Source: a virus
DNA: 38,050 nucleotides
Virus record (IMG/VR): IMGVR_UViG_3300048833_000709
Span: 1-38,050 of that record
Direction: 5' to 3' (one strand)
Part shown: piece by piece, positions 1 to 31,195 of the stretch
How positions within the stretch are numbered: position 1 is the first letter of the stretch
How the letters are laid out: each line of letters opens with the position of its first letter
The notes under the pieces: model-generated
Database searches by the model: none
Told to the model about the DNA's origin: nothing
Seen by the model: the letters and a program-made list of their open reading frames with translations, nothing else
Made by a program: the position numbers and the translations under genes

Positions 1-279
1 TCAGTGGATGGCCGCGTCGGGCGGTCGTCGCTGCCGGCACCGGGGGCAATCGCACGTCGGCGATCCGCCGGTCGCGCCGCGGATGACGTCCCGGAGCGCC
101 ATCGCCACCATCGGCAGCGCCTTTAAGATGTCCCGGCCGTGCCGGCCGTTCGTGTCGCACCGCGCGATCGTGCTGTCGGTCAGGCTCATCACGAGGATGA
201 ACCCGGCGTCCTCGCCTACGGCGTCACGCACCGCCGCCATGGCCGCGGCCATCTTCGCCTCGTCGTCAGCGTCGGACAT
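1..279 (-). CDS. small hypothetical phage protein with C-terminal Cys cluster
   Basis: A 92-residue protein with no family that I recognise. The N-terminal half is acidic and alanine-rich. The C-terminus carries a CDCPRCR cluster that could hold a metal with another ligand, although only three cysteines lie together. The ATG has a GAGGA-type ribosome-binding site just upstream, inside the end of the integrase gene, and the two genes overlap by 14 bases, so it is the last visible gene of the leftward operon. The window edge coincides with its stop codon, so the gene looks complete. The product may be a small regulator or an accessory of the integration module, but nothing in the sequence decides this. 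Confidence 0.6.
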   Translation of the reverse strand: MSDADDEAKMAAAMAAVRDAVGEDAGFILVMSLTDSTIARCDTNGRHGRDILKALPMVAMALRDVIRGATGGSPTCDCPRCRQRRPPDAAIH

Positions 280-1453
280 CGTCGTCCTCCGCGGTCAGCA
301 GGTCGGCCGGCGGGCTGATCGCGGCGACCACGCGGGCGGCGATCGCGTCGTGAGCGGGCATGTACGTCGCCTCGAGCCGCGGGTCGGTGGCGGCCGCGTT
401 GCCGAGCACCTGGCCGACGCTGTCCTTGTCCGCGCCGCCCAGGCGGGCGAGGTGCCCGAAGGTGCGGCGCAGGTCGCGGAACTGCAGGTCGGCCACGCCG
501 GGCTGCTGCTTCGCGGCCGCGGCGCGCAAGGCTGCGAATCGCTTGCGGAACGTGTCGGAGCGCCACGGCGCGCCTTCCGGGCCCAGCAGCATCGGCCCCG
601 GGCCGTCGCCGCGCTCGGCCGCCCAGCGGCGCAGCAGGCCGTCGGCGACCGGGTGCAGAGAGATCCTGCCCCAGTTCTGCTTCTTCGACCGGATCAGCTC
701 CCACCAGCCGGGCTGCGCGAACTCCTCGGGCGCGGCCTTGAGGATGTCGGCCTGGCGCTGCGCGGTCAGGGCGGCCAGCGCGATCGCCGCCGCCATGGCG
801 GTCTCGCGCCGTCGCAGGGCCGTGCGCAGCAGGGCCCCGAGCTCCTCCCAGCTGGCGACCCGGCTGCGCGGCGGCGTCTTGAGGGCGCGTCGGCGCTTGC
901 CGTCGAGGCGCAGGCAGGGGTTCGCGTCCTCGGGGATCCAGCCCAGCTCCTCGGCGTGGCTCAGCAGCAGCGAGAGCTTGCGCACCATCGCCTTCGCCGC
1001 GAAGGCGCCGCCGCCGCGCGTCTGCCACGGCCGCGCGCCGCGCAGCACCTCGGAGCGCCAGGCGCGCACCGCCGCCTTGTCGAGCGCGACGACGGGCTTG
1101 TCGCCGAAGTCGCGCTCGATCGCGGCGAAGGCCTTCGCGTAGTCCTCGCGCGTGGCGGGGCGCAGCTCGGCCCAGTGGTCGTCGGCCCGGTAGCTGCGAA
1201 TCAGCGCGGCGACCGTGCGGCCGCCGTCGACGCGGGCGACGCGCGGCGGCGCGCCGTCGCGGACCGCGGCCGCCGCCATGGCGTTCAGCTCCTCGGCCCG
1301 TCGGACGCCGCGGGTGGTGGCGTCGATGTCCTCGGCCTGGAACCCGAGCGGACGCGCGGCCGCCGGCGGCTCCCACCACACGCGCCAGCTGCGGTCGGCG
1401 CGCTGGCGCTGGCGCACGCCGGCGGGCGGCGACTTGAGGGGCGGGCGGCTCAT
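266..1453 (-). CDS. int: tyrosine-family site-specific integrase
   Basis: Phage integrase of 395 residues that would join phage and host attachment sites through a covalent 3'-phosphotyrosine intermediate. The catalytic pocket is readable in the C-terminal half: Arg233 in TAQRQADIL, Lys257/258 in RSKKQNW, the second box FRDLRRT (Arg326 and Arg329, with Arg where many relatives have the first His), Asn352 in LGNA where His is usual, and the nucleophile Tyr364 in EATYMP. The N-terminal part (about 75-185) fits a SAM-like core-binding domain. The ATG at 1453 is chosen because it forms an ATGA overlap with the upstream stop; the open frame runs further upstream but with out-of-frame-like composition. 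It is the next-to-last gene of the left operon, below an excisionase-like gene, the usual arrangement for coordinated excision. Confidence 0.93.
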   Translation of the reverse strand: MSRPPLKSPPAGVRQRQRADRSWRVWWEPPAAARPLGFQAEDIDATTRGVRRAEELNAMAAAAVRDGAPPRVARVDGGRTVAALIRSYRADDHWAELRPATREDYAKAFAAIERDFGDKPVVALDKAAVRAWRSEVLRGARPWQTRGGGAFAAKAMVRKLSLLLSHAEELGWIPEDANPCLRLDGKRRRALKTPPRSRVASWEELGALLRTALRRRETAMAAAIALAALTAQRQADILKAAPEEFAQPGWWELIRSKKQNWGRISLHPVADGLLRRWAAERGDGPGPMLLGPEGAPWRSDTFRKRFAALRAAAAKQQPGVADLQFRDLRRTFGHLARLGGADKDSVGQVLGNAAATDPRLEATYMPAHDAIAARVVAAISPPADLLTAEDDDVRR

Positions 1454-1749
1454 GCCGTGGCCCCTGCGATCACCGCTCGCTTCCGCGCGGCGATGATCCA
1501 GTTGGTGATCGCGCCCTCGGCGCCGCCGGTGCTGGTCGCCGCGACGCCGCCGATGCGGCAGCGCCAGCGCCACGACGCGTCGGCCGTCAGCGCGCCGCCG
1601 GCCTGCTCGACCGCGCCCTGCAGGAAGGCGTTGCGGCGATCGCGCTGCGCGCGGATGTCGAGGTGGTGCGCCTCGTCATGGCGCTGCACGTGCGGCGCCT
1701 TCAGCCGCGCGGCCTCCAGCGCGTCGGCGATCGCGAGAAGGTCGCTCAT
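1450..1749 (-). CDS. hypothetical protein in int operon
   Basis: A 99-residue protein of unknown function, rich in Ala, Arg and His, with no membrane segment. The central part (KAPHVQRHDEAHHLDIRAQRDRR) looks charged and helical. The C-terminal part has WRWRCRIGG followed by a short Ala/Gly/Thr-rich stretch. The start at 1749 is set by an ATGA overlap with the gene above; its stop in turn overlaps the integrase start in the same way. Translation is therefore probably coupled to integrase production, which suggests but does not prove a role in integration or excision. No paralogue is seen in the window. Confidence 0.65.
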   Translation of the reverse strand: MSDLLAIADALEAARLKAPHVQRHDEAHHLDIRAQRDRRNAFLQGAVEQAGGALTADASWRWRCRIGGVAATSTGGAEGAITNWIIAARKRAVIAGATA

Positions 1750-3350: not shown

Positions 3351-3377
3351 GAAACACCTCCGGAAATCGGTGGTATT

Positions 3378-3406
3378 TCGATAAACGGTAAAATCGGTAA
3401 AATCAA
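3378..3406 (-). promoter_or_regulatory. left-operon promoter with embedded tandem operator
   Basis: Read on the minus strand, TTGATT (3406-3401) and TATCGA (3383-3378) are separated by exactly 17 bases, a sigma70-like spacing. The spacer is filled by two tandem copies of the same 9-mer, which on the plus strand read CGGTAAAAT CGGTAAAAT (3386-3403). A repressor bound here would cover the spacer and block the excisionase/integrase operon. The -35 box overlaps the repressor's stop codon. The motif recurs at 4082-4099 and 12225-12242. Binding by the 3403-4008 repressor is inference. Confidence 0.65.
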
Positions 3407-4008
3407 TCCGGTTGTCGGTCGCGCCGCAGCGCGACCATCACGCCGCGGATCATCACGCGCTCGCCGTCGACGAACAGCGGGGCCTCGGCCTCGAGCGACG
3501 GGCGCAGCAGGTAGGGCGGACGGTAGAGGCGCAGCAACATGACGGCTGCGTCCCGGCCCCAGTCCTGCAGGCAGGCCAGCACCACGTCGCCGCCGCGGGG
3601 CGCCAGCCCGGCGTCGACGACAAGCCGGTCGCCCGCCAGGACGCCCGCCGCGCGCATGTCGTCGGACCGCGCGGTCCATAGGCTCTGCCCCGGCCCTTGA
3701 GGGCCGACCGCGAAGACTTTCTCATGCGCTGCAACGTCATGGACCTGCGCGACGTCGCCGGCCGGCAGGCCGGGCGGCGGGGGCGCGACGGCCTCGGCCA
3801 CCGAGATCGACAGCCCGGCGCGGCGCAGGACCTCGGCCAGCGGCACGCCCAGGATCGTCGCCAGCTGCTGCGCCTGCGGCAGCTTCAACGGCTGCGCGCC
3901 GGAGTAGATCCGCTGCAGGAACGTCGGCGACCGCTTCATCAGCCGGCACGCCTGCGACATCGAGACGCCCGCCTGATCGTGCGCCGCCCGGAACCATTCG
4001 CCGTCCAT
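3403..4008 (-). CDS. prophage repressor: HTH plus S24/LexA-like domain
   Basis: A 201-residue CI-type repressor. Residues about 10-65 form an XRE-like helix-turn-helix (VSMSQACRLMKRSPTFLQRIY and then the QQLATILGVPLAEVL helix). The C-terminal half follows the UmuD/LexA/S24 pattern, with SDDM around Ser115, then AGDRLVVD, PRGGDVVLA and a final MIRGVMVALRR. The region where the catalytic Lys normally sits (VKRL in relatives) reads VMLLRL here, with no Lys, so self-cleavage may be impaired. A possible Ala-Gly cleavage site is at 83-84. The start at 4008 has an AAGGAGG site 10 bases upstream. The gene is divergent from the Cro-like gene, with operator copies between them and another just past its 3' end. 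Confidence 0.85.
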   Translation of the reverse strand: MDGEWFRAAHDQAGVSMSQACRLMKRSPTFLQRIYSGAQPLKLPQAQQLATILGVPLAEVLRRAGLSISVAEAVAPPPPGLPAGDVAQVHDVAAHEKVFAVGPQGPGQSLWTARSDDMRAAGVLAGDRLVVDAGLAPRGGDVVLACLQDWGRDAAVMLLRLYRPPYLLRPSLEAEAPLFVDGERVMIRGVMVALRRDRQPD

Positions 4009-4060
4009 GCCGTTCGATCCTCCTTGCGTTGCGAGGTATCGAATATGGGGCCTCACGCCG

Positions 4061-4099
4061 TTCGGTCCGAAAACCGAAATACGGTAAAAACGGTATTGC
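4061..4099. promoter_or_regulatory. repressor/Cro operator and divergent promoter region
   Basis: The 123-base gap between the repressor and Cro-like starts contains CGGTAAAAA CGGTATTGC (4082-4099), a near copy of the tandem 9-mer at the left promoter, together with flanking ACCGAAA and TTCGGT elements. Candidate boxes exist in both directions: rightward TTCGGT (4061) and TAAAAA (4085) with 18 bases between; leftward, on the minus strand, TTCGGA and CATATT with 18 bases between. Both would be affected by protein bound at the repeats. The boxes are only partial matches, so the operator is better supported than the exact promoters. Confidence 0.5.
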
Positions 4100-4131
4100 C
4101 CGGACAGCAGATGCTGTGTAGCGGTAGGGCC

Positions 4132-4380
4132 ATGCAGATCCATGTCGACTTCCGCGCCGTGCTGCTGATCGCCTTCGGCTCCTGGTCGAAGGTCGCGACG
4201 GCGGCCGGCGTCAACACCACCGGCACCCCCAGCAAGTGGACGCACGGGGTGCCGAGCCAGATCGTCCCGCGCCTGATGGCGCATCCCTCGCGGCCCGGCT
4301 GGCTGACCGAGGACATGCTGTCGGACGGCGCGGTCGTGACCATCGAGGGCGTCGGCCGTCGGCCGATGGCCGCCGAGTGA
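4132..4380 (+). CDS. small Cro-like regulator
   Basis: An 82-residue protein transcribed away from the repressor. The segment AVLLIAFGSWSKVATAAGVN followed by SKWTHGVPSQIVPRLMAHP fits a compact helix-turn-helix: a first helix, a turn around AAGV, and a recognition helix containing Ser/Lys/Trp as in YdaS/Cro-like phage regulators. Position and size match a Cro partner that would turn down the repressor during lytic growth. The start at 4132 is uncertain; an ATG 21 bases upstream is also in frame and neither has a strong ribosome-binding site. The stop overlaps the next gene's GTG start (GTGA), implying coupled translation. Confidence 0.65.
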   Translation: MQIHVDFRAVLLIAFGSWSKVATAAGVNTTGTPSKWTHGVPSQIVPRLMAHPSRPGWLTEDMLSDGAVVTIEGVGRRPMAAE

Positions 4381-11151: not shown

Positions 11152-11883
11152 TCAGGCCTCCGGCAGGGCGGCGGGGGCCGAGACCGGCGCGACGTGGGCG
11201 GCCACGGCGCGCAGGCGGGTGGTCAGGTCCTCGATCGCGGCCTGTTCCACGGCCAGGCGGGCGAGGTTGAAGGCCGCGGCCGTGCGCAGGTCGATGCGGG
11301 GGCCGTCGCCTTCGTCCAGCGCCATGCGGCGCAGGATGGCGTCGCGCGAGGCCTCGGCCGAGGCGAGCTGGGCCGAGAGCTGGCGCAGGGCCGCGGCGGC
11401 GGCGCCGGGGTCGCGCATCGAGAAGCGCTCGCTGTCGGAGCGCAGGTCGGGCTTGTCGAGGTAGAGGGCGCGGGCGATGCGGGCGGTGACGGCGTCGCGG
11501 CCGCGGCCGGGGTCGCGCAGCTGGGCGAGCTCGGCCTCGATCAGGTCCAGCGCCCAGGCGCGGAAGGCCCGCGCCCGCGGCGTGCGCGCCAGCATCGCCA
11601 CCAGGTGCGCGCCGCGGAGGGAGAACACGCGGACGTCGAGAAGCCGGTTTCCGACAGATGCGGGGTCAATCTGACCCCGCATCTCCCCGTAAGCGGTCGG
11701 CAACTTGACGATGGTGCTCATCGAATCGGTGAACTCGTCCGCGTTGCGGGCGTAGAGGCGGTTCACGTGGCGCTGGTCGTCGTAGCCCAGCGCGCTGGCC
11801 ACGTCGCCGGCGGTGAACCACGGCTGGCCGCCGCGGTCGATCACGGCCAGTTCCACATCCTCGAACTTCATCAGGTTGGTCAT
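11152..11883 (-). CDS. ant: BRO-family antirepressor
   Basis: A 243-residue protein. The N-terminal BRO-N domain (residues about 1-105) shows FEDVELAVIDRGGQPWFTAGDVASALGY, a central YARNADEFTD, and the RVFSLRGAHLVAMLARTPRARAF.AWALDLIE stretch typical of phage antirepressors. Such proteins bind or titrate the CI repressor and trigger lytic growth. The C-terminal half is helical and charged (RQLSAQLASAEASRDAILRRM), with no KilA-C-type signature that I can name. The start at 11883 has AAGGTGCAC just upstream, the very sequence targeted by the C4 RNA, so translation is probably repressed in the lysogen. The 80-residue gene follows four bases later. Confidence 0.82.
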   Translation of the reverse strand: MTNLMKFEDVELAVIDRGGQPWFTAGDVASALGYDDQRHVNRLYARNADEFTDSMSTIVKLPTAYGEMRGQIDPASVGNRLLDVRVFSLRGAHLVAMLARTPRARAFRAWALDLIEAELAQLRDPGRGRDAVTARIARALYLDKPDLRSDSERFSMRDPGAAAAALRQLSAQLASAEASRDAILRRMALDEGDGPRIDLRTAAAFNLARLAVEQAAIEDLTTRLRAVAAHVAPVSAPAALPEA

Positions 11884-11930
11884 TGCGTGCACCTTTGGGT
11901 TAGCCGCCCCGCCCCGCTTCCAAACGGGGT

Positions 11931-12005
11931 GGGCCGGACGACAGCAGGTTGGAAGACCGCAGGTGCACCACGGCAGGCCCGAAAGCCTCCCACTGCGCCC
12001 GACCC
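11931..12005 (-). ncRNA. c4: C4-type antisense RNA controlling the antirepressor
   Basis: Read on the minus strand, a closing stem pairs GGGTCGGGC (12005-11997) with GTCCGGCCC (11939-11931), nine pairs including G-U. Inside, one hairpin exposes GGTGCACC (11969-11962) in its loop and another exposes CTTCCA (11955-11950). Both recur complementarily at the antirepressor: TTGGAAG at 11924-11918 and GGTGCAC at 11893-11887, the latter overlapping the ribosome-binding region of the start at 11883. This two-site a'/b' against a/b layout is that of P1/P7/N15 C4 RNA (established knowledge). The RNA would be cut from the same transcript and block antirepressor translation. Confidence 0.82.
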
Positions 12006-12102
12006 ATAGAGACGCCCGCCGCTCAGTGTGAGCGCGGGCGCGTCGGACGCGCACCGTATCGGGCTTCCAATCCCGGACTCGCCTTTTTCGCGAGACGCTG
12101 GA

Positions 12103-12131
12103 ATCATGCCGCCGAACAGGGCGCGCCGCAA
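12103..12131 (-). promoter_or_regulatory. candidate promoter for the C4/antirepressor transcript
   Basis: On the minus strand TTGCGG (12131-12126) and CATGAT (12108-12103) are 17 bases apart, a partial match to sigma70 boxes. It lies about 100 bases before the C4 RNA, as expected if c4 and ant share one transcript. A 'TTTTTCGGTAAG' half-operator lies just upstream (12149-12160), and an 8-base inverted repeat (12169-12208) lies further up. The boxes are weak, so the exact position is tentative. Confidence 0.4.
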
Positions 12132-12224
12132 GCCAATGTAGCGATTCGTTTTTCGGTAAGCGAGGGCGCAACATCTTGAGGGCGGCGCGCCGCGGGCGCG
12201 AGATGTTGGGCGGGAGGCGGCATT

Positions 12225-12242
12225 GGTTTACCGAATTTACCG
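12225..12242. promoter_or_regulatory. tandem repressor operator before 12243 gene
   Basis: GGTTTACCG AATTTACCG on the plus strand is the reverse complement of CGGTAAATT CGGTAAACC, the same two-copy 9-mer as at the left-operon promoter (3386-3403) and the repressor/Cro gap (4082-4099). It abuts the GTG start of the 12243 gene and lies between it and the antirepressor transcript, so it could control either direction. I could not find a good -10 box at the expected distance on the plus strand. Confidence 0.55.
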
Positions 12243-12860
12243 GTGAGCGGGCCGGAAAGCCAGTTCCCAACCGGATATCCTGCGAACCCATTCGCGGAGC
12301 CGAACTGCGAAGACATCGCCAAGGCCTACGACATGTCCGTCTGGTCGGACGGATACTGGCGCGGCGTGAAGGAAATGATGCGGCGCCAGGAGGAGGCCGG
12401 GACGCGCCAGAAGTGGCGCGGCGAGCTTCGGTCGGTCGACTTCATCGCCGGACACGAACGCGGGTTGGCGGAAGGCAGGCGCACGGCCGAGCCAGCGCCG
12501 GCGCGCCAACGCAGCGAAGAAGCTGCCGAGGCGCAGCTGCAGCGCGACATGGGTGGCGCGATGGCGCTGTGGTCGCTGCGCAAAAACGCCAGCCTCACGC
12601 GGCTGGGCCGGCTGTGGTTGTGGTTCATCGCATGGACCGGTGGAACCGTATGGGCGACGGCCGCTGTCCTTACGGGGATGATCTACACGCATGGCGAGCG
12701 CATGGCCGAACGGACGTTCCCGGGCATGTTGGCTCTCGGCGCGATCCTCGGCGTCGTTGCAGCTAGCACGGCGTGGCGGGTGACGCGGGGCGTGGTCGAA
12801 ACCGCTGATGATCGAGCGGCAAAGAAAAGGATGCGACCTTTCCAAGAAAAGACGAAGTAA
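12243..12860 (+). CDS. two-helix membrane protein, unknown
   Basis: A 205-residue protein with a soluble N-terminal region of about 120 residues (DIAKAYDMSVWSDGYWRGVKE, and a charged Glu/Ala/Gln part) followed by two transmembrane helices, about 122-150 (LWLWFIAWTGGTVWATAAVLTGMIY) and 160-182 (MLALGAILGVVAASTAW), and a basic tail. No family is recognised. The GTG at 12243 overlaps the operator edge and lacks a ribosome-binding site; ATG 12333 with an AAGG upstream is an alternative. The operator links it to lysogeny control. A superinfection-exclusion or other lysogenic-conversion role is possible, with no direct proof. Confidence 0.5.
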   Translation: MSGPESQFPTGYPANPFAEPNCEDIAKAYDMSVWSDGYWRGVKEMMRRQEEAGTRQKWRGELRSVDFIAGHERGLAEGRRTAEPAPARQRSEEAAEAQLQRDMGGAMALWSLRKNASLTRLGRLWLWFIAWTGGTVWATAAVLTGMIYTHGERMAERTFPGMLALGAILGVVAASTAWRVTRGVVETADDRAAKKRMRPFQEKTK

Positions 12861-16043: not shown

Positions 16044-16055
16044 CTGGCGCATTGA

Positions 16056-16080
16056 CCGAAAATCGGTAAAGTCGGCGCCC
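16056..16080. promoter_or_regulatory. degenerate operator-like element after terL
   Basis: ACCGAAAATCGGTAAAGTCGG contains one good copy of the 9-mer CGGTAAAGT (16064-16072) followed by a poor second copy (CGGCGCC), and an ACCGA/TCGGT inverted pair. It lies in the 184-base gap between terL and the next structural gene, upstream of a GGAGG site for the 16228 gene. It could be a weak late operator or chance; the second half is poor. Confidence 0.3.
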
Positions 16081-25671: not shown

Positions 25672-27719
25672 TCATCGTCCCGAACGCTCGCATCGCGCCG
25701 GTCGAGCAGGCGCAGCCGCAGGCCGATCCGCGCAGGTTCAACGTGGGCGACGCGGCCGCGACCATCGGCGCGGCGGCGGCCGACGCCTTCAGCCGCATCG
25801 ACGATCAGAACGTGGCGGCGGAGCTGCGCGAGGCGCGCGTCGCCGCCGCCGAGCGCCTCGGGGCCGAGCGGCTGGGCTTCGACCAGGCCGCCGACTGGAC
25901 CGGCCTGTCGGCGCGGTGGGAGGAGACGTCCTCGGCCATCGGCCGCCAGATCGGCGAAGGGCTGTCGCCGCGGGCGCGCGCGGCCTTCGACCTGTCGTTC
26001 CGCGAGCTGCGCAGCCCGCACACGCTGGCGCTGCAGGAGCGCGAGTTCGTCCTGCGCCGCGGGCATGAGCGCGCGCGGCTGACCACCGGCCTCGAGCGGC
26101 TGACCGCCGCCGCGGCCGGCGCCGCCGATCCGGGCGCCGCCGCCGCCGTGGCCGACCAGACCGCCGACACCATCGAGGAGGCGCGCGCCGCCGGCTGGGT
26201 CAGCGCCGAGGAGGCCGCGGAGCTGCTGAGCCGCGCCGGCGCGCGCACCGCCAACGCGCTGGCGCTGCGGCTGATGCGCGAGGACCCGAACGCGCTCGAC
26301 GCCCGGCTGGCGGCCGGCGACTTCGACGCGCTGGGGCCCGAGACGGTCGAGCGCTACCGCTCGAGCGCGCAGGCGGCCGTCGCGCAGGACGCCGAGCGCG
26401 CCGCCCAGCGCCAGCAGCAGGCGCAGCGCGAGGCGCAGCTGACGCTGGCCCGCGACGTGGAGGCGGCGGTCGGGCAGCTGGAGGCGGGCCTTACGCCCGA
26501 GGACCTCGAGCCGCTGCTGACGCGGGCGCAGGGCACGCCGGAGGGCCGCAGGCTCGAAACCGCCGTCGCCGCGACGCGCGCGGTCGACGGCGTGTTCGGG
26601 GTGATGAGCCCCGCGCGGCAGGCCGAGGCGCTGCAGACCTTCCGGTCGCGCCCGTCGCAGCCCGGAGACGAGGAGGTGGTCGCCGCGATGGAGCGGCTGC
26701 ACGCCGCGACCATCGAGAGCGTCGCCGCCGACCCGCTGGGCCACGTGGCGCGGCGCGGGATCGTCGACGTGGCGCCGGTCGACCTGTCGGACCCGGCGTC
26801 GGTCGCCGCGCGCGTCGCCACGGCCGAGGCGGTGGCGACCGGCTGGGCGCAGGGCCAGCCGGTGCGCTACTTCACCGACGACGAGCGCCGCCAGTACGCG
26901 GCGCGGCTGCGCGACGCCGGTCCCGAGGACCAGCTGGCGCTGGCGGTCGCGATGGTCGACGGCTTCGGCGGTCGTGCGCCGGACGCGCTGGGCGAGCTGG
27001 GGCTCGACAATCCCGCCTTCGGCTACGCGGGCAGCCTGGTGGCGCTGACCGGCGACGACGCGGCGGCGCGGTCGATTCTGGCCGGCCAGCGGTTGCTCGA
27101 CCAGAAGCAGGGCGCCAAGCCCAAGGCGGCGCTGCGCGACGGCGTGATCGCCGAGCTGGTCGCGGATGTGACCGCGGGGTCGGACGAGATGCGGCGGCTG
27201 GCGTTGCTGGCGGCCGACGCGCATTTCGCCGACGTCGGCGCGCGCGTCGATCCGACCGACGAGGAGGCCGTGCGCGAGGCCTACGCCGACAGCGTGCAGG
27301 CGGCCTTCGGCGGCGTGCGCCGCGGCGGGCGGCTGTTCGGGGGCGTGCAGCCGGTGAACGATCGTCCGACGATCCTGCCGGCCAGCCTGACCGGCGACGC
27401 GGCCGAGCGGATGCTGGGCGCGGCCACGGCGGCGCAGCTGGCGGCGGCGTCCCTGGGCGGCGCGCCGACGTGGGGCGACGGCCGCCCCGTCCGTTCGGCG
27501 AGCGACCTTGTGCTGATCTACGAGGGCGGGGGATCGTATTTGCTGGCGCGGGAAACCAGCGACGGGCTCGCCGTTCTGTCCGACGCGACGGCGCCAGACG
27601 GTCGTTTCCGGCTAGATCTTGCACGTTTGGCGCGCGCCGTCGGCGTCCAGTCGACCCTCTACGATCGTACCGGCCGCGCCGTCATGGACGCCGCCGCGAC
27701 GCTGGGGCCCGCGCCATGA
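25668..27719 (+). CDS. internal virion protein, T7 gp15-like
   Basis: A 683-residue protein, mostly helical, with long Ala/Arg/Glu stretches (REARVAAAERLGAERLGFDQAADW, QQQAQREAQLTLARDVEAAVGQLE). Size and place between gp14-like and the transglycosylase-bearing gp16-like gene support an ejected core protein that forms part of the periplasmic conduit. No enzymatic motif seen. The C-terminal region (SASDLVLIYEGGGSYLLARE) is beta-like. Starts at ATGA with gp14-like, ends at ATGA with the polyvalent ejection gene. Confidence 0.7.
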   Translation: MIIVPNARIAPVEQAQPQADPRRFNVGDAAATIGAAAADAFSRIDDQNVAAELREARVAAAERLGAERLGFDQAADWTGLSARWEETSSAIGRQIGEGLSPRARAAFDLSFRELRSPHTLALQEREFVLRRGHERARLTTGLERLTAAAAGAADPGAAAAVADQTADTIEEARAAGWVSAEEAAELLSRAGARTANALALRLMREDPNALDARLAAGDFDALGPETVERYRSSAQAAVAQDAERAAQRQQQAQREAQLTLARDVEAAVGQLEAGLTPEDLEPLLTRAQGTPEGRRLETAVAATRAVDGVFGVMSPARQAEALQTFRSRPSQPGDEEVVAAMERLHAATIESVAADPLGHVARRGIVDVAPVDLSDPASVAARVATAEAVATGWAQGQPVRYFTDDERRQYAARLRDAGPEDQLALAVAMVDGFGGRAPDALGELGLDNPAFGYAGSLVALTGDDAAARSILAGQRLLDQKQGAKPKAALRDGVIAELVADVTAGSDEMRRLALLAADAHFADVGARVDPTDEEAVREAYADSVQAAFGGVRRGGRLFGGVQPVNDRPTILPASLTGDAAERMLGAATAAQLAAASLGGAPTWGDGRPVRSASDLVLIYEGGGSYLLARETSDGLAVLSDATAPDGRFRLDLARLARAVGVQSTLYDRTGRAVMDAAATLGPAP

Positions 27720-30700
27720 GCGGCCTTTTCGCTCGCGATGACGGTGTCGCCGCCCGGTATCAGGTGGCGGACGGGCCTCGGCCCGGCGGTGGAGAGTTGT
27801 TTGCGGCGAACTTCACCGACGCGCAGATTCGCGGGGACGCCAACGCGCAGACCTATCGCCGCCGAAAGGAATTGCTCGAAGCTCTGGCTGATCGGCTTGG
27901 CCCTGAAGGCTCGAGGTATCGACAAGCGTTCGACCGATCTGCCGTGCTTCCCGAGCGGGATGTCGAAGCGCTGATGACCGCGGTGCGATCCGCTGCGGAA
28001 CGCGATCCATCCAAGTGGGCGGATGCGCCGCTGACGCGACAGGCCGCCTTCGACAAGGTCGCCAAGCAGCTGCGCGCGGAGATCGACGCCGCGCAGCTGG
28101 TCATGGGGCGGCAAACGGGGCTGGCCGACGCTGCCGTGTCATTTGCGGGTCAGATCGCGGGGACGGCTGCGGACTTGCCAAACGTCATCATGTCGCTCCC
28201 GGGCTTCGCCGCGAAGTCTTTCGGGCGCATGGTCCTCTACGAAGCCGGCCTGGGAGCCGGTGCAGAAGCCATCGCGCTGCCCCGTATCGCTGCGGTGGAA
28301 AAACAGCTGGGGCTGGAGCCCACCGATCCCTTCATGCAGATCGGAGCCGGCGCGGTCTTCGGCGCGGCGCTTCCTATAGCGGGGCGCGGCGCAAGGGTCG
28401 CGTGGCGTGGCGCAGCCGCGGTCTCGAACTCTGATCTGCTGGCGGCCGCCCGCGCCCGCGTCGCGCGGCTGCGGCCCGTGGAGCGCGCGGCCGCGGCGCG
28501 GCTGGAGGACGACGCCGCCGCCCGCGCCAACGCGCCGGGCGAGGATCAGGACGCCGACGTCGCGCGGCTCGACCGCGCGGCCGAGGCGGCGGCGCAGGGG
28601 CGGCCAGAGCTGATCCCGGAGACGGCCCCGCGGGCGGACGCGCTGGCGCCGGGCGCGCCGCGGCGCGTGTCGCTGGAAGATCGCATCATCGGCGTCGAGA
28701 GCGGGGGGCGGGCGGACGCGGCCAACCCGAACTCGAGCGCGCTGGGGGCGGGGCAGTTCATCGCCGGCACGTGGCTGGAGATGCTGCGCAAGCACCGGCC
28801 CGAGCTGCTGGAGGGGCGCTCCGAGGCCGAGGCGCTGGCGCTGCGCACCGACCCCGATCTGAGCCGCCAGATGACCGCCGCCTACGCGCGCGACAACCGC
28901 GCCTGGCTGGGCGAGCAGGGCCTGCCGATCCACGACGGGGCGGTCTATCTGGCGCACTTCGCCGGGCCGGCGGGCGCGGCCCGCGCGCTGCGCGCCGCGG
29001 CCGACGCGCCGATCCGCGACGTGATGTCGGATGCGGAAATCGCGGCCAACCGGGCGATCCGGTTCAACGGCAAGAGCTTCGAGCAGTTCACCGCCGGCGA
29101 CCTGATCGGCTGGGCGAAGTCGAAGATGGGGATCGCCGACGCGGCCATCGGCGATCTGCCCGCGGCGACGCGCGCGCAGTATCCCGCCGACGAGGTTCTG
29201 ACCGACGCGGGCGCCTTCCAGTACAAGAGCGGGGGCGACGCCGAGGGCGTGACCGCGCGGCTGCTGTTCGAGCGCGAGTGGGACCCGGTCGCGGGCAGCG
29301 GCCTGACGTTCTTCGAGGCGCTGGACGGGCGCGTCTTCGTCGCCGACGGCCACCAGCGGTCTGGCCTCGCGCGCCGGCTGATGGCCGCTGGCCACGCGCC
29401 GATCACGCTGGACGGCTTCGTCTATCGCGAGGCGGACGGGTGGACGCGCCCGCAGGTCCGCGCCATGGCGGCGCTGACGAACATCCGCGCGCTGACCGGC
29501 ACCGCCACCGACGCCGCCAAGGTGATGCGCGACTTCCCCGAACTGGGCGAGCGCATCGCCCGCGGCCCGGAGTTCGTGCGCCGCGCCGACGCGCTGGCGC
29601 GGCTGGCCCCCGAGACATTCGAGGCCGTCGTCAACGAGGTGATCCCCGAGAACCTCGGCGCCGTCATCGGCCGCGTCGCGCCGGGCGACGAGCGGCTGCA
29701 GCGCGCCATCCTGAAGGCGTTCCGCCAGCTGGAGCCGGCCAACGAGCTGGAGGCCGACCTGATGGCGCGCGACGTCCGGCGCCTCGGCCTCGAGCGCGAG
29801 ACCGAGGGCGCGCAGATGTCGCTGTTCGGCGACGACTTCGACTTCGGGGCCAGCCCGATCGGCGAGCGCGCCCGGGTGCTCGACCAGACCGTCAAGGAGC
29901 TGAAGCGCGACAAGGCCGTCTTCGAGCGGCTGACGCGCGAGGCCGACCGCATCGAGCAGGAGGGCAACCGCCTTGCGCGCACCCAGAACGAACGCCGCGC
30001 CGCCCAGCAGCAGCGCATCCTCGAGGCCGTCCTCATCGCGTCCGACGAGCCCGGACCCGTCCGCGACGCTCTCGACGCCGCCGCCCGCACCGCCCGCGCC
30101 AAGTCCGTCGCCGCCGGCGCCCGCGAGTTCGCCGAGGCTGTCCGAGCGGGAATTGACAGCGGTGTTGTCGGCCGTGCGTTCGATCGAGCTGCAGTCCGCC
30201 GCGCTGAAGCTCCGCTTGGCGATGGCCCGGGCGAAGGCGCCGCCCGCGCCGCCCTCGGCGACCCCGAGCCCCCGGCGCTGAGCGAGGCGGGCGAGATCCC
30301 GCCCGGCCTGTTCGACGACCCGGCCGGACCCGAGGCGCGCGCTGCGACGGTGGCGCTGGAGGAGGACCTGCTGGCGCAGGCCGCGCCGGCGCCCGCCCGA
30401 GAGGCCGCGACGGGATTGCGCGACGTTGTCCGCAAGGCCGGTGAGCCCGGAGACCACCCGCGCGCCTTCGTGCGCGTCGGCGCGGTGACGGACGGCTTCG
30501 TGCGCGTGGTGCAGGACGAGGCGGGCATCGACCTGAGCGGCTACCAGCATTCGGTCGACGTGTACGGCGTGCGGCACATCCTGTCGGAGCACGGCGACCC
30601 GGCCGCCGAGCGCAGCCGCGGCCAGGTCGCGATCACCGAAGCCGACATCGCTGAAATTCCGCAGACGCTGGCGGCGGCGACCCACGCCGTCGTCGGGTTG

Positions 30701-31195
30701 CAGAGCCGTCGCGGCCAGCCGGTTATCGGACTGATCGCGCGGCGAGGCGATGGATCGATCGTCTATGTCGAGGAGGTGCGCACGAAGCGCCGCACCCTCG
30801 CTGCGATTACGATGTGGAAGTACCCCGCAGAGGCCAATGCCGAGAGCGTCCTCTCAGCCCTGCGCCGAAACGTCCGCGACGGCCGCGGGGATGGTGTGAA
30901 GGTAGTCGAACTCAGCCCTGACGCCAAGCCGATCGACGCGCCGGACGCCCCCGACGAATTCGCCGCGTCGCGCGACGCGCTCGAGCGCGACCTGGTCGGC
31001 GAAGACGCGGTCAGCGGCAAGTACGGCCGGCTGCTGTTCGACGCTCTGGACGAGCCGACGCGCGCGCAGCCGGTCAACCTGTCCGAGGCTGAGGGCGGCG
31101 ATCTGCGGGCGCTGGGCGAGATCGTGCAGGAGCTCGACGACGAGCTGCGCGCGCTCGACGCCATGGACGCCTGCCGGATCGGGGGCGAGCGATGA
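27716..31195 (+). CDS. polyvalent ejection protein: SLT, ParB-like and PBECR nuclease domains
   Basis: A 1159-residue virion ejection protein. Residues 1-230 are an N-terminal region with hydrophobic stretches (VSFAGQIAGTAADL, GAGAVFGAALPIAG). Residues about 322-430 are an SLT transglycosylase domain: GVESGG with catalytic Glu328, then NPNSSALGAGQF. Residues about 490-610 are a ParB-like domain of polyvalent type (EWDP, VADGHQRSGLA, ALTNIRALTGTATDAAKVM). A coiled coil follows (about 720-770). Residues about 945-1045 read VRHILSEHGD, GQVAITEADIAEIPQ, YVEEVRTKRRTLAAITMWKY, which match the phage barnase/EndoU/ColE5-RelE-like (PBECR) nuclease pattern: conserved His954, Arg and late Thr1032. GC is lower near both ends, a sign of recombination. 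Confidence 0.8.
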   Translation: MSGLFARDDGVAARYQVADGPRPGGGELFAANFTDAQIRGDANAQTYRRRKELLEALADRLGPEGSRYRQAFDRSAVLPERDVEALMTAVRSAAERDPSKWADAPLTRQAAFDKVAKQLRAEIDAAQLVMGRQTGLADAAVSFAGQIAGTAADLPNVIMSLPGFAAKSFGRMVLYEAGLGAGAEAIALPRIAAVEKQLGLEPTDPFMQIGAGAVFGAALPIAGRGARVAWRGAAAVSNSDLLAAARARVARLRPVERAAAARLEDDAAARANAPGEDQDADVARLDRAAEAAAQGRPELIPETAPRADALAPGAPRRVSLEDRIIGVESGGRADAANPNSSALGAGQFIAGTWLEMLRKHRPELLEGRSEAEALALRTDPDLSRQMTAAYARDNRAWLGEQGLPIHDGAVYLAHFAGPAGAARALRAAADAPIRDVMSDAEIAANRAIRFNGKSFEQFTAGDLIGWAKSKMGIADAAIGDLPAATRAQYPADEVLTDAGAFQYKSGGDAEGVTARLLFEREWDPVAGSGLTFFEALDGRVFVADGHQRSGLARRLMAAGHAPITLDGFVYREADGWTRPQVRAMAALTNIRALTGTATDAAKVMRDFPELGERIARGPEFVRRADALARLAPETFEAVVNEVIPENLGAVIGRVAPGDERLQRAILKAFRQLEPANELEADLMARDVRRLGLERETEGAQMSLFGDDFDFGASPIGERARVLDQTVKELKRDKAVFERLTREADRIEQEGNRLARTQNERRAAQQQRILEAVLIASDEPGPVRDALDAAARTARAKSVAAGAREFAEAVRAGIDSGVVGRAFDRAAVRRAEAPLGDGPGEGAARAALGDPEPPALSEAGEIPPGLFDDPAGPEARAATVALEEDLLAQAAPAPAREAATGLRDVVRKAGEPGDHPRAFVRVGAVTDGFVRVVQDEAGIDLSGYQHSVDVYGVRHILSEHGDPAAERSRGQVAITEADIAEIPQTLAAATHAVVGLQSRRGQPVIGLIARRGDGSIVYVEEVRTKRRTLAAITMWKYPAEANAESVLSALRRNVRDGRGDGVKVVELSPDAKPIDAPDAPDEFAASRDALERDLVGEDAVSGKYGRLLFDALDEPTRAQPVNLSEAEGGDLRALGEIVQELDDELRALDAMDACRIGGER

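Follow-up and report, generated by a model that had tools for sequence, protein, structure and literature searches.

A C4 antisense RNA beside a Bro-N antirepressor gene in a podovirus-like genome, and a possible attenuator in the conserved C4 leader

A member of the C4 antisense RNA family is encoded on the minus strand of a 38,050-base IMG/VR virus record with a G+C content of 73% (IMGVR_UViG_3300048833_000709, positions 1 to 38,050; hereafter the window), upstream of an antirepressor gene with an N-terminal Bro-N domain (ant), and two of its stretches, a' and b', are complementary beyond chance to sites at the start of that gene. The locus is very probably a C4 antisense RNA operon that silences ant. 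As a single case, the C4 RNA of the window is an ordinary member of a known family, and what it adds is an antirepressor, predicted to be under C4 control, in a podovirus distant from the phages known so far. Moreover, a concrete role for the upstream sites a1 and b1, which are termed 'putative' in the P1 record, is suggested by about 100 C4 leaders when these are compared. Combined with the presence of a C4 RNA in the Gifsy-1 IsrK locus, these observations offer a testable model of how such prophages keep an antirepressor off. The interest of the case lies mainly in its conserved leader.

The Rfam covariance model RF01695 gave a full-length match at 12011-11925 that scored 49.5 bits, just 4.5 bits more than the gathering score of 45, with E = 1e-6 for the window. 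This search had been set beforehand as a refutation test by the initial annotation, in which a C4 antisense RNA at the antirepressor was proposed, and the match lies above the curated threshold. The minimum free energy fold of the same segment takes the three-stem shape of C4 at -44.8 kcal/mol, with a z of -2.7 relative to dinucleotide shuffles. The centroid fold also has three stems, with b' (GUGCACCU, 11961-11968) in the loop region of hairpin 2 and a' (CUUCCAA, 11949-11955) unpaired in the three-way junction; both stretches had initially been placed in hairpin loops, which is correct for b' and incorrect for a'. The mature C4 is predicted at about 12005-11928, from an alignment with the 77-nt C4 of P1, the ends of which were taken from the P1 record. 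Matches to the Rfam families PreQ1-III and M23 were rejected as being at chance level.

The ant gene (11152-11883, minus strand, 243 aa) starts about 40 nt downstream of C4 on the shared strand and its reading frame is open and in frame; the product matches PF02498 above the cut-off as well as PHROG anti-repressor families (best 5e-30). The a2 site (UUGGAAG, 11923-11917) is contained in the hairpin CCCCG-UUUGGAAG-CGGGG (11912-11929), and b2 (AGGUGCAC, 11894-11887) overlaps the ant Shine-Dalgarno sequence AAAGG (11896-11892). All seven positions of a' (11955-11949) pair with a2 (7/7, duplex -8.3 kcal/mol) and all eight of b' (11968-11961) with b2 (8/8, -14.7 kcal/mol). The match of both stretches to the ribosome-binding region of the antirepressor, already noticed in the initial annotation, is therefore upheld, with a b pair of 8 bp that is one longer than had been counted. 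Dinucleotide shuffles of the downstream leader contained a2 in 1.7% of cases and a2 together with b2 at a suitable spacing in 0.018%; when the C4 of the window was set against foreign targets, at least 7 nt were paired for a in 2/102 and at least 8 nt for b in 0/102. On the minus strand, UUGGAAG has only three occurrences in the entire window, a1 and a2 among them. A long ORF (12291-11152), which is in frame with ant and passes through C4, was rejected as a coding extension of ant because the Bro-N domain starts after 11883, where a good Shine-Dalgarno sequence lies. The ORF at 12131-11880, considered as an icd-like leader peptide, had no family match.

A second pair of sites, missed in the initial annotation together with the leader hairpins, is located upstream of C4. 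The a1 site (UUGGAAG, 12070-12064), an exact complement of a', is found in the loop of the hairpin CGGG-AUUGGAAG-CCCG (12060-12075), and b1 (GGUGCGC, 12049-12055) pairs 7/7 with the GUGCACC of b', including one G-U pair (-13.8 kcal/mol). The two sites are separated by 8 nt, a spacing shared with other leaders, and their combination appeared in 0.005% of dinucleotide shuffles. A first leader hairpin, CUCGC-N7-GCGAG (12078-12094), recognised from the sequence and a constrained fold, occupies a position common to other leaders. Further upstream, a weak promoter-like site (12103-12131) with -35 TTGCGG (12131-12126), a 17-nt spacer and -10 CATGAT (12108-12103) was read from the sequence at the place occupied by TTGAC(A)-17-TATA(A)T in other C4 leaders; a strict consensus promoter scan reported nothing for the C4 leader of the window. 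The leader also scored below the curated thresholds of c4-a1b1 (RF03163; 14.1 vs 46.7 bits) and isrK (RF01394; 20.3 vs 50 bits). For the a loops, a YUNR U-turn was also considered; it fits 65 of 100 a1 sites, but is not claimed as a feature because this count has no null model.

C4 was found above cut-off in 60 of the 398 sampled Pseudomonadota genomes, several of them with many copies, and also in P1, P7, N15, Gifsy-1, Aaphi23 and APSE-1. The single 3.7-Mb genome of Arsenophonus nasoniae DSM 15247 (G026, loci L041-L064) has 17 C4 matches, and several other sampled genomes have at least 10 each. The set used for comparison consists of 103 collected C4 loci, the counts of which are not independent because the loci are related to one another. 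Since the a and b target sites are not part of the Rfam model, they provide an independent test of the mechanism. Mean complementarity to own versus swapped targets was 6.3 vs 4.4 nt (a) and 7.4 vs 4.7 nt (b) downstream, and 6.7 vs 5.1 (a1) and 7.2 vs 5.2 (b1) upstream, a control that is conservative because the swaps include related loci.

The order a1-b1-C4-a2-b2 of the window is the layout of P1 and P7 and recurs in N15, APSE-1 and Aaphi23; a likeness to the immI regions of P1, P7 and N15 had been drawn in the initial annotation. In N15, APSE-1 and Aaphi23, C4 is likewise flanked by a and b sites upstream and downstream, and in the latter two it stands beside a Bro-N antirepressor related to that of the window; their sequences are diverged, and the window C4 scores lower (49.5 vs 58-79 bits, with 71.3 bits for APSE-1). 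APSE-1 is a podovirus and thus a precedent for the occurrence of C4 in temperate podoviruses, which is therefore no novelty of the window. The resemblance to immI (c4-icd-ant) of P1 and P7 extends to the C4 fold, a1/b1 upstream, a2/b2 downstream, b2 at the ribosome-binding site and an antirepressor that would be cotranscribed with C4. On the other hand, P1 possesses icd, whereas the window is without it and has b2 at the start of ant itself; the a and b sequences are different, the structural genes are podoviral, and the promoter and the U tract are weak. In the P1 record, a1 and b1 are annotated as putative sites for C4, and translational repression is assigned to a2 and b2.

Following the C4 repression mechanism of P1 as summarised in PMC5320573, a single minus-strand transcript would contain the leader with a1 and b1, C4, a2, b2 and ant. 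RNase P probably excises C4 from this transcript, as in P1, and the pairing of a' and b' with a2 and b2 would cover the ant Shine-Dalgarno sequence, with the consequence that no antirepressor would be made in the lysogen. With the antirepressor off, the prophage repressor would stay active and induction would be prevented; C4 would likewise silence the ant message of any related phage that enters the cell.

A second and less certain arm concerns the leader. In the window, an antiterminator-like hairpin that uses bases of b1 (12035-12056, minus strand, -14.2 kcal/mol) and a terminator-like hairpin (12006-12040, minus strand; core arms CGCCCGC / GCGGGCG at 12040-12013) followed by UCUCUAU are mutually exclusive on folding; a terminator scan did not report the latter hairpin, the U tract of which is weak. 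The same arrangement is found in many C4 leaders, where the last bases of b1 start a stem between strands 1 and 2, and strand 2 doubles as the 5' arm of a hairpin that precedes a U run. Under conservative criteria, 33 of 54 distinct terminator-bearing leaders had an exclusive stem with 4 or more Watson-Crick pairs, against 7.8 expected from shuffling of the segment before the terminator. Because b1 belongs to the antiterminator-like stem, C4 pairing at a1/b1 would favour the terminator-like hairpin; folding of the window leader with a1 and b1 kept unpaired, to mimic bound C4, gives this hairpin. Unconstrained folding of the complete leader at equilibrium likewise yields the terminator-like hairpin at its end, and therefore the switch would have to act during transcription, before strand 3 is made. 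These folds suggest that C4 may limit the transcription of its own operon via the conserved upstream leader. That the leader of the C4 family is an antisense-RNA attenuator, in which C4 at a1/b1 would cause termination before C4, the terminated leader would titrate C4 as a sponge and C4 would thus set its own level, is a tentative proposal that we consider quite possible, if short of probable. If true, it would unite the logic of P1 immI, Gifsy-1 IsrK and P4 CI.

In Gifsy-1 (NC_010392, 34316-34131), isrK has a C4 match of 69 bits directly after it, which makes IsrK-anrP a C4 locus, and by position and size we take the match to be STnc1160. Gifsy-1 shares the a1-b1-C4-a2-b2 layout, with IsrK as the leader and the sites read by eye from the sequence. 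This link is absent from the Gifsy-1 paper, in which C4 is unmentioned; there, Hershko-Shalev et al. raised the possibility that STnc1160 works at the IsrK terminator in the manner of P4 CI, although they note that a co-expression experiment does not fit this simply (PMC4825925). The CI RNA of satellite phage P4, with seqA and seqC, is described as a processed antisense RNA that acts on transcription termination (PMC4825925), and by this description it resembles the C4 locus in having complementary sites in its own transcript, one upstream and one downstream, with the difference that it controls replication genes and not an antirepressor.

The Gifsy-1 locus also supports a different order of events, in which a short terminated a1/b1 RNA would bind the C4 segment in trans and free a2 and b2, making the locus mainly an activator switch of ant and less a silencer. 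Short IsrK is reported to activate anrP translation in trans (PMC4825925), the succession of isrK, C4 and antirepressor gene places C4 where the processed STnc1160 is described, and the leader of the window has the matching order and a sub-threshold isrK match. The documented arm in P1 is, however, the opposite one, with C4 as a repressor, and with a terminator as weak as that of the window, short leader RNA may fail to build up. We regard this activator reading as rather unlikely for the window; it is compatible with silencing by C4, in that the leader could be a C4 sponge.

Two further explanations would deprive the locus of a function. The C4 RNA and its target sites could be unused relics in a degenerate prophage, as a C4 score near the threshold, a weak promoter and U tract, and a record that may be a fragment would allow; against this, the four target sites are still complementary to the window C4 despite sequences unlike those of other phages, and ant is open and in frame, so that we hold decay to be improbable. 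Still further from the data is a chance resemblance without any antisense RNA, for which it can be said that stable hairpins are common at 73% G+C and that the fold of a longer 152-nt stretch is unexceptional (z -0.7). The E value from a curated covariance model, the shuffle frequencies of the target pairs (5e-5 and 1.8e-4) and the right gene, strand and distance leave hardly any room for it, and silencing of ant by C4 is the reading retained here.

The phage itself was described in the initial annotation as T7-like, which is accurate for the capsid and tail genes only. A head-tail connector, a major head protein and tail tubular-type proteins were identified with PHROG and Pfam, including a match of the T7-type connector to PF12236 and matches to tail and tail tubular PHROG families. 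The connector has its nearest counterparts in Pelagibacter phages such as HTVC010P (about 28-30% identity). Searches of viral contigs gave no close relatives with the major head protein as the query and only distant ones, about 25-32% identical, with the connector. A T7-type RNA polymerase was found neither among the PHROG and Pfam matches of the main ORFs nor by a PF00940 search of the record, a weak negative that does not establish its absence, as the control genomes were likewise without signal. The window further contains an integrase gene (266-1573, minus strand) and primase-like genes. The S24 repressor of the initial annotation stands as a candidate, a gene at 3403-4284 (minus strand) with weak matches in both the HTH and the S24 parts (HTH_31 1e-5, S24 0.003, UmuD-like PHROG 6e-8); with an HTH that begins only around residue 99, the true start is probably internal to this ORF.

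A TTTACCGAA-like motif occurs 8 times in the window when up to one mismatch is allowed, against 0.6 expected. The matches lie at 3377-3401, 4080-4088, 12152-12160, 12227-12242 and 16052-16070. Most of them are clustered between genes, close to the repressor candidate, at either side of the gap between the C4 leader and a divergent ORF at 12243, and before 16228. These motifs are candidate operators of the prophage repressor, and may be compared with the C1 operator at the c4 promoter given in the P1 record. Upstream of the C4 leader there is also an inverted repeat, CAACATCT-N24-AGATGTTG (12169-12208), a pattern present in 0/100 shuffles. Finally, among the virion genes, an ORF encoding 1241 aa (27470-31195, plus strand) has a match to a PBECR3 nuclease-like domain (1.4e-13) close to the C-terminal end of its product.
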